Part shown: one piece after another, positions 31,667 through 45,510 of the stretch | Layout: each line of letters opens with the position of its first letter | How positions within the stretch are numbered: position 1 is the first letter of the stretch | Assembly (NCBI GenBank): GCA_902784965.1 | Contig: CACZWU010000019.1 | Location: 1-55,908 of the forward strand | Origin: an uncultured Bacteroidia bacterium | Lineage (GTDB): Bacteria; Bacteroidota; Bacteroidia; Bacteroidales; UBA932 | Reading direction: 5' to 3' | DNA length: 55,908 bases | Program-made: the position numbers and the translations under genes | The notes under the pieces: generated by a model | What the model was told of the DNA's origin: nothing | The model's input: the letters and a program-made list of their open reading frames with translations, nothing else | Database searches by the model: none

Positions 31667-31739
31667 GGGGTATTAGCTCAGTTGGTAGAGCGATAGGTTC
31701 GCAATCTATAGGTCAGGGGTTCGAATCCCCTATACTCCA
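31667..31739 (+). tRNA. tRNA-Ala (anticodon CGC)
   Basis: The 73-nt gene folds as a full cloverleaf: a 7-bp acceptor stem, a D arm with GCTC/GAGC, a 5-bp anticodon stem with loop TTCGCAA (anticodon CGC at loop positions 34-36), a 5-base variable loop and a T arm with TTCGAAT. The acceptor stem has the G3:U70 pair (31669 with 31736), the main identity element of alanine tRNA. The 3' CCA is not encoded. A likely promoter is TTTG at 31625-31628 with TATTTTCG at 31649-31656, 20 bp apart. Confidence 0.95.
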
Positions 31740-31829
31740 CGATCCATGATCAGCTCTTTACCATAAAGGCCCGTTTCTTTTTTAACTTTTTTCTGTTTTT
31801 GGCGACCTTTATACGTAAACCGAATCATC

Positions 31830-35088: not shown

Positions 35089-36027
35089 TCATTTCAGGCA
35101 GAGGCAACGACGGAGTTGCGCATCGGTCGTCCTTTTCTTTCGGGATCGCCACAGATTCTTTTCGATAAGGTCGTATAGAAAGGCGCGCTGGGAAGTGGAA
35201 ACTTCATATATCGTCTTTCCTTTGCAATATTTTGGCAAGCAGGTCTCATCGATCAGGCTGCATAGCTCCAGATCGGATATCCAGACGGGATCGTGTTTCC
35301 CGTTTTCATTTCGAAGAAGCCTTTCAAGATCCATGTCCGGCGTTCCCTGCTCAATCAGCTCCAGCGTGATAAGCGGCGAAGAAGAAGGCTCTTCTTTCTG
35401 GTCCCGGAGGGACATCTCATCTCCTATCTTGTTCATTTGAAAGATAAAGTTCCGCGGGGTTCCATAGAAGGATTCCACCTGAGCCACGTCCAGAATGTCT
35501 TCCCTCAGCAGGAGGCCGGAAACATCCATGCGGTAATGATGCGGAATGTCTACGCCTTTCGGCAGATACTTGTAGCGCTCCGTGTCAGGCATCAATGACT
35601 TGGAATGCGTTTTTCCCAACTGCCGTGCGAAGAAGGCATTCGCCGAACAATGAGGATAGCCGAACGGAGTCGGGGAAATACCGTGATGGAGCCCCTGCCG
35701 ATTGACATAATTGAGCGCCGCCATCGTATGATGAAATCCGTCTACATGCAGAATGAAGCCCTGGCGCTCAGCCAGCCGACCCCGCCGCTTGTACTTGGCA
35801 TTGAAAAAGCGTGCATATGCATAGCGATACCGACGGATCACTTCTTCCGGTGCATCCGTTTGCGCCAAAGAATGGAGATGGGTTGAGGGAAATCCGTCGG
35901 CCAGCAAGCGGGAATCAGTTTCCAGCGATGCCAGCGCCAGGCAGTTGAAGCCGCGTATCAGATCGGCTTCGCTTCGGAACAATACTTCGTCGTGGGAGGA
36001 CAGAGAAATGTGATAGGTCTTTCTCAT
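35089..36027 (-). CDS. REP-associated tyrosine transposase-like (Y1/HUH) protein
   Basis: From the ATG at 36027 (MRKTYHISL) the product is 312 residues. Residues 1-125 fit the Y1 transposase fold of RAYT proteins: FRSEADLIRGFNCLALAS, the metal-binding HUH motif H50-L-H52 in STHLHSLAQT, and a tyrosine at 107 in AALNYVNRQGLHHG, matching the family's YI-NP-type motif. The remaining 190 residues are longer than in typical RAYTs, rich in charged residues, and end in RKKRTTDAQLRRCL. RAYTs cut and move short palindromic repeats as single strands. No second copy or flanking ends are seen, so it looks domesticated. Two palindromic repeats lie 1.5 and 9.3 kb away. A longer frame opens at 36090. Confidence 0.75.
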   Translation of the reverse strand: MRKTYHISLSSHDEVLFRSEADLIRGFNCLALASLETDSRLLADGFPSTHLHSLAQTDAPEEVIRRYRYAYARFFNAKYKRRGRLAERQGFILHVDGFHHTMAALNYVNRQGLHHGISPTPFGYPHCSANAFFARQLGKTHSKSLMPDTERYKYLPKGVDIPHHYRMDVSGLLLREDILDVAQVESFYGTPRNFIFQMNKIGDEMSLRDQKEEPSSSPLITLELIEQGTPDMDLERLLRNENGKHDPVWISDLELCSLIDETCLPKYCKGKTIYEVSTSQRAFLYDLIEKNLWRSRKKRTTDAQLRRCLCLK

Positions 36028-36206: not shown

Positions 36207-37487
36207 ATGCTCAAGCACGCAATTCTCTTAATGCTGGCCGCCATCTTTCTGGCGGGCTGCCGGGGCGGTTCAAGCGAGGCCGTTTCGGATTCGGACGCTT
36301 TGCCCGTTGAACGGGAGCAGTTCATGACCGATTGTCCGATTTCCGGGACGAAGGTCACGAAAGACTATTCCAAAGTATATGTCTACCGGCCGGACCAGTC
36401 CTGGTTCCGGGATGAGCCGGTCGCGACCTTCAAGATGAAGAAGGGCAACTTTGAGGGCACGGTTCGGCTGGATTCGACGCTGGTCTATGAACTGGTGTTC
36501 TCGGTACCTGGATCCGGTATGGCCCAGGTCCGGCCTTTCGTGCCGACGGCGAAAGGCATCCGGATCATCGGACCGGTAGAATTTGGCGAGGTCATAGAAC
36601 TGGTCTCCGACACGCCTGAAAACGACAACTTCAATCGTTATTCGCTTATCAGCCACAGCATGGATCCGCTCTCCGGGCCCGTCGAAGAGCGATTCATGGC
36701 GTTGATGGAAAAGAAAGCTCTGTATACCGATGCGGTCTACGCCCTGATGGCAGAAGAAGACACTGCATCGCGGGAGCGTCGCGTGGAAATCTGGGCGGAG
36801 ACGGACAAGTTGAAGACGTTGGATGAGAGTTACACCGAAGCGGGCCTGGCCGTCAAGCGGGAGTTGGATGCCCTCAATGCCGCGAAGGACAGCCTGCAGG
36901 GTGCGTATCTGTTGGAGCATCCCATGATCAGTTCCTTCTACCTGCTTTACCAGAATTTGCGGTCTGCGTTTGTCTCCAAGAAGGATTTGCAGCCTTGGAT
37001 CGACCTGTACGACCACACCTATGCAGACAAGTTCCCCGATCATCCCTATCATTCGATCATCCTTTCGCTGACCGGCAACCAGGTGGGCGATTCCTTCCGG
37101 GATTTCACACTGCCTGATGCAGAAGGCGTGCAGCATAAGCTTTCCGATCTGACCGCCGGCAAACTGGCCGTGGTCGATTTCTGGGCCTCCTGGTGCGGCT
37201 CCTGCCGGATCAGAAGCAAGGCACTCATTCCCGTTTACGAGAAATATGCAGGAGCAGACTTTACGATGGTCGGCGTGGCACTGGAATTCAAGAACGACGC
37301 GGCCTGGCGCAAGGCCCTTAAAAGGGACGGCTATCCCTGGACCAGTCTCGTTGCCATCGATGCCGTTCCCTCCCTCAAAGCCAACCACGCCAAGGCCTTC
37401 CTGCTCGACCGCGACGGCACCATCCTGGCCATCGACCCTACTGTAGAGGAATTGGACTCCCTGCTGCAGGAAAAACTGCTGCGTTAA
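36207..37487 (+). CDS. TlpA-like thioredoxin lipoprotein (with DUF4369-type N-terminus)
   Basis: The 426-residue product has a lipobox (FLAGC, cysteine 18), a beta-rich N-terminal domain (about 40-140, KVYVYRPDQSWFRD) resembling DUF4369, a helical middle and a TlpA/ResA-like thioredoxin domain (about 290-426). The redox motif WCGSC is in VVDFWASWCGSCRIRS, and the cis-proline is in DAVPSLKANH. It should reduce or exchange disulfides in the envelope. It has its own promoter. A second thioredoxin-fold lipoprotein lies downstream, beyond a palindromic repeat. Confidence 0.88.
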   Translation: MLKHAILLMLAAIFLAGCRGGSSEAVSDSDALPVEREQFMTDCPISGTKVTKDYSKVYVYRPDQSWFRDEPVATFKMKKGNFEGTVRLDSTLVYELVFSVPGSGMAQVRPFVPTAKGIRIIGPVEFGEVIELVSDTPENDNFNRYSLISHSMDPLSGPVEERFMALMEKKALYTDAVYALMAEEDTASRERRVEIWAETDKLKTLDESYTEAGLAVKRELDALNAAKDSLQGAYLLEHPMISSFYLLYQNLRSAFVSKKDLQPWIDLYDHTYADKFPDHPYHSIILSLTGNQVGDSFRDFTLPDAEGVQHKLSDLTAGKLAVVDFWASWCGSCRIRSKALIPVYEKYAGADFTMVGVALEFKNDAAWRKALKRDGYPWTSLVAIDAVPSLKANHAKAFLLDRDGTILAIDPTVEELDSLLQEKLLR

Positions 37488-37499
37488 CTATTCAATGAG

Positions 37500-37649
37500 T
37501 CTCTGCGCCGTGGGGTCTGCCGCGAAAGGCATCCAGGCGCCGCTTTTTCCCTTTCGCGGAGGTATTTCCGGGAAAAATGCCCGATTCCGTGACGCGAAAG
37601 GGATGAGATAGATGAACCGTCCCTTTCGTGACGAGGAAATGGGATGAAG
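37500..37649 (+). repeat. Palindromic intergenic repeat, copy A
   Basis: These 150 bp align without gaps, at 123 of 150 positions (82%), to the complement of 45361-45510. The copy holds three hairpins: 37520-37529 with 37550-37559 (10 bp, perfect), 37562-37567 with 37575-37580 (6 bp, 7-base loop) and 37593-37603 with 37620-37630 (11 bp, one G:T). The core word cgcgaaagg and its complement recur in alternation. It starts 12 bp after a stop codon. No coding constraint is visible. Confidence 0.85.
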
Positions 37650-45360: not shown

Positions 45361-45510
45361 CTTGATCTCATTTCCCTGCCGCGAGAGGGACGTTTCATCT
45401 ATCTCGTCCCTTTCGTGTCAAGAAATCGGGCGTTTACCCCGGAAACGCTGCCGCGAAAGGGAAGAAGCGGCACCCGCATGCCTTTCGTGACAGACCCAAC
45501 GGCGCAGGGA
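45361..45510 (-). repeat. Palindromic intergenic repeat, copy B
   Basis: This is the inverted copy of 37500-37649 (82% identical over 150 ungapped bases). The central stem (45430-45435 with 45443-45448) keeps its 6-bp length and 7-base loop although its bases changed, including one G:C to A:T pair swap and one C:G to T:G change against copy A. Outer arms again use cgcgaaagg and its complement. The 287-bp gap 45240-45526 holds this repeat and little else; an open plus-strand frame crosses it but shows no protein-level conservation with copy A. Confidence 0.85.

Follow-up and report, generated by a model that had tools for sequence, protein, structure and literature searches.

The window, which is the whole stretch of 55,908 nt that was analysed, is contig C19 of a 1.87-Mb genome assembled in 59 contigs (78% complete). 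Its minus strand encodes a 312-aa RAYT-like protein of the Y1 HUH kind, read from an ATG at 36027 (a GTG start further upstream would give 333 aa); on the side of the gene start lie a thioredoxin-like lipoprotein gene and two copies of a palindromic element. The features are collected in Table 1.

Table 1. Features of the window. Positions count from its first letter; residue numbers refer to the 312-aa protein. R1 is the covariance model of the element.
Feature	Position	Strand	Basis
RAYT-like Y1 HUH protein gene	35089..36027	(-)	ORF listing, homologues
Predicted Y1/HUH catalytic domain, residues 1-118	35674..36027	(-)	AlphaFold2 and Foldseek; edge set by hand
HUH motif H50-L-H52	35872..35880	(-)	conservation in 41 copies
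Catalytic Tyr107 and presumed metal ligand Gln111 (Y---Q)	35695..35709	(-)	conservation
Candidate stem-specificity segment, residues 66-95, between HUH and Tyr	35743..35832	(-)	sliding-window partial Mantel
C-terminal part, residues 119-312, mostly helical	35092..35673	(-)	AlphaFold2; ends in conserved Q304, R307, C308
Thioredoxin-like lipoprotein gene (name from sequence reading)	36207..37487	(+)	adjoins RAYT gene in window and in genome G023
Element copy 1, 127-nt core, two hairpins (~37590-37633, ~37518-37561)	37512..37638	(-)	R1 105.1 bits; in R1 building set
Element copy 2, 127-nt core, two hairpins (~45377-45420, ~45449-45492)	45372..45498	(+)	R1 113.3 bits; in R1 building set
tRNA-Ala (CGC) gene	31667-31740		

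A sequence-only reading of this DNA had placed an HUH pair at H50 and H52 and a tyrosine at 107; these were read in the protein as T49-H50-L51-H52 and Y107-V-N-R-Q111, with Q111 presumed, by analogy with IS200-type transposases, to be a metal ligand. Loss of the histidines or the tyrosine in close homologues, named by that reading as evidence against itself, was not found, the residues being kept in nearly all. Among 41 copies (the window included) H50, Y107 and Q111 are each present in 41 and H52 in 40; among 79 loci from GTDB contigs, a set overlapping the 41 copies, H50 and Y107 are present in 79, H52 in 78 and Q111 in 75, the other 4 having N. AlphaFold2 run with 31 sequences gave a model with mean pLDDT 89.4 and pTM 0.89, in which the N-terminal part runs strand, helix, strand, HUH strand, helix, strand and Tyr helix. 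The top Foldseek match in the PDB was 4er8_A, the structure of a RAYT in complex with a REP hairpin (E 2.1e-4; TM by target 0.70); ranks 2 to 29 were taken by Y1 transposases, among them IS608, ISDra2 and one from Sulfolobus. By fold the protein is predicted to be a Y1 HUH nuclease. Sequence profiles gave no such indication: Pfam and NCBIfam had zero matches to the 312-aa protein even at E 10, and the Y1_Tnp HMM (PF01797), by which the earlier reading expected to recognize the protein, failed to detect it at that threshold. No family member exceeded the PF01797 cut-off, 1 of 31 scoring at all (E 0.081), and searches of the protein or its profile against Pfam, NCBIfam, PHROGs and PDB sequences returned nothing usable. 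The locus reveals a branch of Y1 proteins invisible to Pfam and NCBIfam.

The extra C-terminal part, put at about 190 residues from the sequence, is present and measures 194 residues; Q304, R307 and C308 are each kept in 41 of 41 copies. Folding of this half, also suggested earlier, was carried out and the part modelled alone reached pLDDT 62; at this low model confidence no PDB fold matched at E<=0.001, nor was a Pfam domain found in it. To label this part a helix-turn-helix would be guesswork.

The repeat arms in the window (37500-37649 and 45361-45510) are 150 nt long, inverted and 82% alike. Both copies reported by the sequence-only reading are real, and its distances of 1.5 and 9.3 kb measure 1.48 and 9.34 kb from the gene start; the description as a single palindrome gave way to a 127-nt core of two similar hairpins. 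The element consists of two hairpins of one palindrome placed 72 nt apart, with a repeat unit of 72 nt. For its structure we used alignment A1, built on 71 of 73 elements (two from L072 and L076, shorter than the core, were left out). Within the two local hairpins 85.7% of cells are paired (71 elements, 70 distinct), all 28 stem pairs show changes on both sides, and the covariation score was 0.652 observed versus 0.209 for shuffles and 0.07-0.15 for slid partners; two other covariation measures gave no clear gain over shuffles (both-side-change pairs 25/500, further pair types 318/500). The alternative, nested pairing into one long hairpin accounts for 86.6% of cells with a score of 0.681, and the two pairings score alike because all four arms share one palindrome. 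The folding energy of a single element is not outstanding (z -1.4 to -2.3). As in REPINs and BIMEs, each unit holds two REPs able to pair as a long hairpin, and tandem arrays occur: one in genome G010 (contig C23, L223:4738-5404) has 9.3 units of 72 nt with one hairpin each. A 55-nt form of the element also occurs (127 minus 72). A GTAG/CGTC foot tag was looked for and not found, with GTAG in 2, GTGG in 9 and CGTC in 3 of the 71 elements versus 9.7, 13.0 and 12.8 in shuffled ones. ORFs are avoided: less than 30% overlap with a long ORF was seen for 39 of 62 elements, versus 9.5% of 3100 random places.

The palindrome of the window's clade is CGAAAGGG, and those of other clades are CCACAGAATG, CGACAGGA, CGACACAGA, GCGACGCAGACG, GGACGCTC and others. 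Because stems differ between paralogues, a plain DNA search undercounts the element and the covariance model is needed. The genome-wide count proposed by the earlier reading gave 2 copies by plain search, both in the window, and the model added to these: one further element, with a different stem, lies on contig C34 among the matches listed, which are part of the 9 both-strand matches counted in this genome. This element (L222:1406-1531) has a CCACAGAATG-type stem, and no gene of that clade was found in the genome (78% complete).

Matches to the protein at E<=0.01 were found in 31 of 61 genomes searched, and homologues at least 46% identical in 16, all within the window's genus. From 44 rows at the latter level 41 were taken with their neighbourhoods (16 genomes), the 3 left out being fragments; 10 of the 41 were dropped before protein alignment A2 (near-identical or truncated copies, plus L070 and L096). 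In GTDB r220 contigs a relative is encoded by 120 stretches, and 79 loci were retained; their sources are MAGs of uncultured Bacteroidales or Bacteroidia, with ruminant stomachs the origin of many and horse faeces of two. Complete copies have 311-343 aa, no internal stop occurs in any listed homologue row, and up to 7 close homologues were taken from one genome. Paralogues of the same genome are deeply diverged, with a mean protein distance of 0.45 (56 pairs). An apparent excess of the genes at contig ends did not hold up (6 against an expected 3.8; p 0.18). Among 11 pairs compared, the dN/dS ratio was 0.07-0.16 in the 8 whose dS exceeded 0.1, and between the window gene and the G023 copy it was 0.08; it was 0.30-0.77 in the three closest pairs (dS under 0.03), which have few changes. 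By these ratios the gene is under purifying selection. That agrees in part with the earlier suggestion of a domesticated RAYT-repeat pair, a term that fits less well with several paralogues per genome and with a segment moved or flipped between species.

Other proteins of this general kind are encoded in the window's genome. A 317-aa distant paralogue on contig C16 (L004:1375-2328) scores 15.4 bits with Y1_Tnp, below cut-off, and a flanking repeat looked for there was not found. Two further Y1_Tnp proteins of 319 and 305 aa (L001:309-1268 on C26 and L002:1393-2310 on C13; ~27 bits each) each have unrelated palindromic repeats of their own in their flanks; the arrangement may thus extend beyond the family of the 312-aa protein.

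We examined how regularly gene and element occur together. By R1 an element lies within 2 kb of the gene in 41 of 41 homologues (16 genomes), downstream in 39 (median 46 nt after the stop), upstream in 32 (median 172 nt before the start) and on both sides in 30, a detection that is partly circular because most of those elements built R1. Self-comparison of the flanks likewise found repeated or palindromic elements near most genes. The window locus is atypical in having no adjacent downstream element. R1 matched 69 of the 79 GTDB loci (gene plus up to 3 kb each side) at E<=0.01; for loci from assemblies outside model building the figure was 29 of 39, and the other 10 carry beside the gene their own repeats of different sequence, found by self-comparison and palindromic in nine (at L147 the upstream and downstream repeats are weakly alike), while L174 has only a 72-nt-spaced downstream repeat.

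Across the 61 genomes, elements (E<=1e-3) were found in 19, none of them outside the window's genus. Within it they occur in all 16 genomes that have a close homologue and in 3 of the other 21; among 24 genomes of other families the count was 0. The contrast inside the genus gives a Fisher value of 9e-8, with genomes counted as independent of kinship. At most 57 candidates were scored per genome, with stricter filters, so that zeros could hide weak matches; five zero genomes were rechecked and were still zero. The survey counts are both-strand matches and not copy numbers, and since most elements score on both strands the places are fewer; where any occurred, they ranged from 3 (G008) to 107 (G010). 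The gene-free genus genomes with elements are G003 (78% complete, with two of its elements 38 and 105 nt from a contig end), G008 (65% complete) and G012. The last, 92% complete and with 20 both-strand matches of its own stem type, has a distant kin gene alone (E 2.5e-13) and is a real exception to the co-occurrence. G012 also carries an 86-nt doublet with GGAGACCTG palindromes on both sides of a 27%-identical paralogue (L026), the two sides being 94% alike. G025 and G035, with genes 33-39% identical, gave no R1 match; in the flanks of one copy from each, similar repeats lie on either side of L023 and a tandem repeat precedes L022. Many elements are not accompanied by a gene. The link between gene and repeat, drawn earlier from proximity, is now well supported by the 41 neighbourhoods and the genome contrast; repeats equally common in genomes lacking the gene, which would have spoken against it, were not seen, and a pair particular to this lineage agrees with the empty result outside the genus.

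Protein distance and stem distance were correlated (Mantel r 0.61; 0 of 2000 permutations as high), as were protein and loop distances (0.63) and, less so, spacer distances (0.36). Stem distance averaged 0.52 between paralogues of the same genome, with a smallest value of 0.29 (56 pairs), so no two genes taken from one of these incomplete genomes share a near-identical palindrome; between genomes it was 0.50 for distant proteins and 0.17 for close ones (48 pairs). By these distances the palindromes track protein clade rather than genome. Relatedness inflates tests of the Mantel type, and co-inheritance of a gene with its flanks predicts part of the matching. Residues 66-95 track the stems beyond whole-protein distance (partial Mantel 0.399, 0/1000 family-wise; 32 genes, 8 of 40 being left out as partial or near-duplicate), and, taken whole, the catalytic and C-terminal halves follow the stems to about the same degree (partial 0.24 and 0.23; 38 genes, 2 of 40 left out on the same grounds). 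Passages of PMC8266576 report that the stem is contacted in E. coli TnpA-REP by helix alpha3, which binds DNA, and by the region that follows it; by analogy this part may correspond to residues 66-95.

Gene order around the elements was compared between genomes. Between G028 (contig C50) and G017 (contig C88) a 4.7-kb gene-bearing segment is inverted relative to both flanks, with one edge ~50 nt from the upstream element and the other edge without an R1 match. Between G010 and G002 an element-to-element stretch around the gene lies in the opposite orientation to both matched neighbours, with its edges at elements; more than one event is indicated because one neighbouring segment lies 2.7 kb off in G002. 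Compared with G017 and G028, the gene in G010 is flipped relative to the single available flank, ~2.4 kb from the element in G010. The location of the RAYT gene with its neighbour differs between the window and G023, with breaks in or next to elements (window ~37.6 and 45.3 kb; L084 5.9, 8.5 and 18.5 kb) and others away from them (window ~35.05 and 48.44 kb); in G023 the RAYT gene and the thioredoxin-like lipoprotein gene lie between two direct elements. The compared contigs are MAG contigs, so misassembly at repeats could have produced some of these differences.

Empty sites were sought between G033 and G036, which are ~98% alike. No clean one was found among 59 element rows (24 from G033, 35 from G036): both flanks were found for 37, of which 23 had occupied-site spacing within 10 nt and the other 14 had indels or look spurious, and 22 had no flank pair, partly since only stretches of each genome were compared. 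A short gap at L191:6327 was rejected as an empty site, R1 finding an element there in G036, and a 20-kb synteny search was of no help. Lacking a clean empty site in this pair, the comparison does not demonstrate recent transposition. The 5 homologue pairs at least 97% identical with both flanks available keep their context, all of them G033 versus G036, and many pairs near 75% identity share no flank. In one place G033 (C4, L197:12290-L198:2094) has ~9.7 kb extra, with an element at both ends, where G036 (C29, L215:14053-14179) has one element.

We consider it probable that the protein is a single-strand nuclease of the RAYT (TnpA-REP) kind, with the 127-nt element, a REPIN/BIME-like doublet, as its cognate substrate. 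The protein would bind the hairpins in single-stranded DNA, such as the lagging-strand template, and read the stem mainly through the region between HUH and Tyr; Tyr107 would cut beside the hairpin, with the metal held by H50, H52 and Q111, and the ends would be rejoined, which would copy elements, extend them by 72 nt at a time and in some cases make them the edges of rearrangements in nearby DNA. Such rearrangements would then be the work of the protein rather than of ordinary recombination. As each paralogue keeps its own palindrome, we propose that several separate systems coexist in one genome. Counting against this reading are the elements of G012 without a close gene, the few elements in the window's genome and the absence of an adjacent downstream one.

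On another reading, the HUH protein and its matched elements would be a device for inverting or moving segments, in which single-strand cuts at paired hairpins flip or relocate whatever lies between elements (the gene for the protein and at times neighbours), with several separate protein-palindrome pairs per genome; if true, the device would stand as the HUH counterpart to site-specific inversion switches, and we think it unlikely. Quite unlikely, in our estimate, is a transposase-derived, sequence-specific DNA-binding regulator that no longer cuts, with elements serving as operators or terminators and the wider copies as a small regulon. The long C-terminal extension with its conserved end, the elements close to both gene ends, their small number in the window's genome and the purifying selection would suit a regulator; the catalytic H, H and Y are almost always kept, which is unexpected if cutting was lost, and the 72-nt array, the rearrangements near elements and the lack of a recognised DNA-binding domain also argue otherwise. 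That gene and flanking elements form a composite or IS200-like transposon moving as a unit would account for elements on both sides in 30 of 41 loci, for the different placement in the window and G023 and for the ~75%-identity pairs without a shared flank, but it is very unlikely given the deep divergence of same-genome copies, the kept context of the closest pairs and the many gene-free elements. Recombination between 127-nt repeats would give inversions and deletions without any protein, but it is barely credible that the elements are ordinary intergenic palindromes lying near the gene by chance and rearranged through RecA, given the 41/41 association, stems that follow protein clade and not genome, no match outside the genus and a catalytic-domain segment that tracks the stems.

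The family bears on how RAYTs choose their palindromes and on why bacteria keep RAYTs. Here one genus has dozens of diverged proteins, each beside its own palindrome, with up to seven examined per genome; the relatives of an uncultured gut bacterium thereby offer a natural set of likely enzyme-target pairs from which rules of recognition might be drawn. Given both-sided changes in the stems, tracked by a 30-residue segment, a recognition code and the separation between systems become testable by swaps.

Comparison with known systems was made against passages of Quentin et al. 2018 (PMC6006769) and of PMC8266576. As in RAYT/TnpA-REP systems with REP, BIME or REPIN (groups 2 and 3), we find a predicted Y1 HUH fold with one Tyr (4er8 nearest), bordering palindromes that are also present elsewhere in the genome, doublets, arrays and a palindrome matched to the protein. 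They differ in that the present family has Y---Q, 311-343 aa, a fixed 72-nt spacing, no GTAG/CGTC tag, up to 7 close homologues from one genome and tens of elements, versus the hundreds given for groups 2 and 3 in the passages. The tyrosine motifs described there are Y---NP for class 2 (TnpA-REP), Y---Q for class 1 and a Q-type motif for class 3; the window's YVNRQ lacks the class-2 signature. PMC8266576 describes a given tnpA-REP as mostly single-copy, without evidence that it moves, and reports that hosts of group 3 frequently carry several REPtrons; the presence of several systems in one genome is thus not new in itself.

Among the subclasses described in the passages of PMC6006769, subclass 2.6 (Bertels group 5) shares Bacteroidetes hosts and atypical structures near the gene without GT[AG]G, whereas it has a median of 179 aa, NH[LIV]H and YIH[QN]NP, and the present family THxH, YVNRQ and the 190-residue C-terminal part. 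Class 3 shares the Q-type Tyr motif and the atypical flanking structures and is likewise REPtron-like, with a median of 178 aa, NHVH, a CnGA foot and hosts in Planctomycetes, Acidobacteria and Proteobacteria. Subclass 2.1/TIRYT (Bertels group 1) also has a long C-terminal extension after Y1; there it carries HTH or DnaA_C-like domains with no REP nearby, whereas here palindromes are present and the extension has no recognised domain. IS200/IS605 TnpA (IS608, ISDra2) shares Y---Q, the Y1 fold and hairpins beside the gene; its copies are given as near-identical (99.4% mean identity), and recent copies of that sort were not found here, where paralogues are diverged and many elements are gene-free. 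The combination of Y---Q, THxH, a long C-terminal part and untagged doublets was not found described in titles and abstract starts of the open-licence literature. With this combination of features and that search result, we suggest that the family works in a RAYT-REPIN-like manner and forms a separate branch, outside the published subclasses compared, as these are described in the passages cited.
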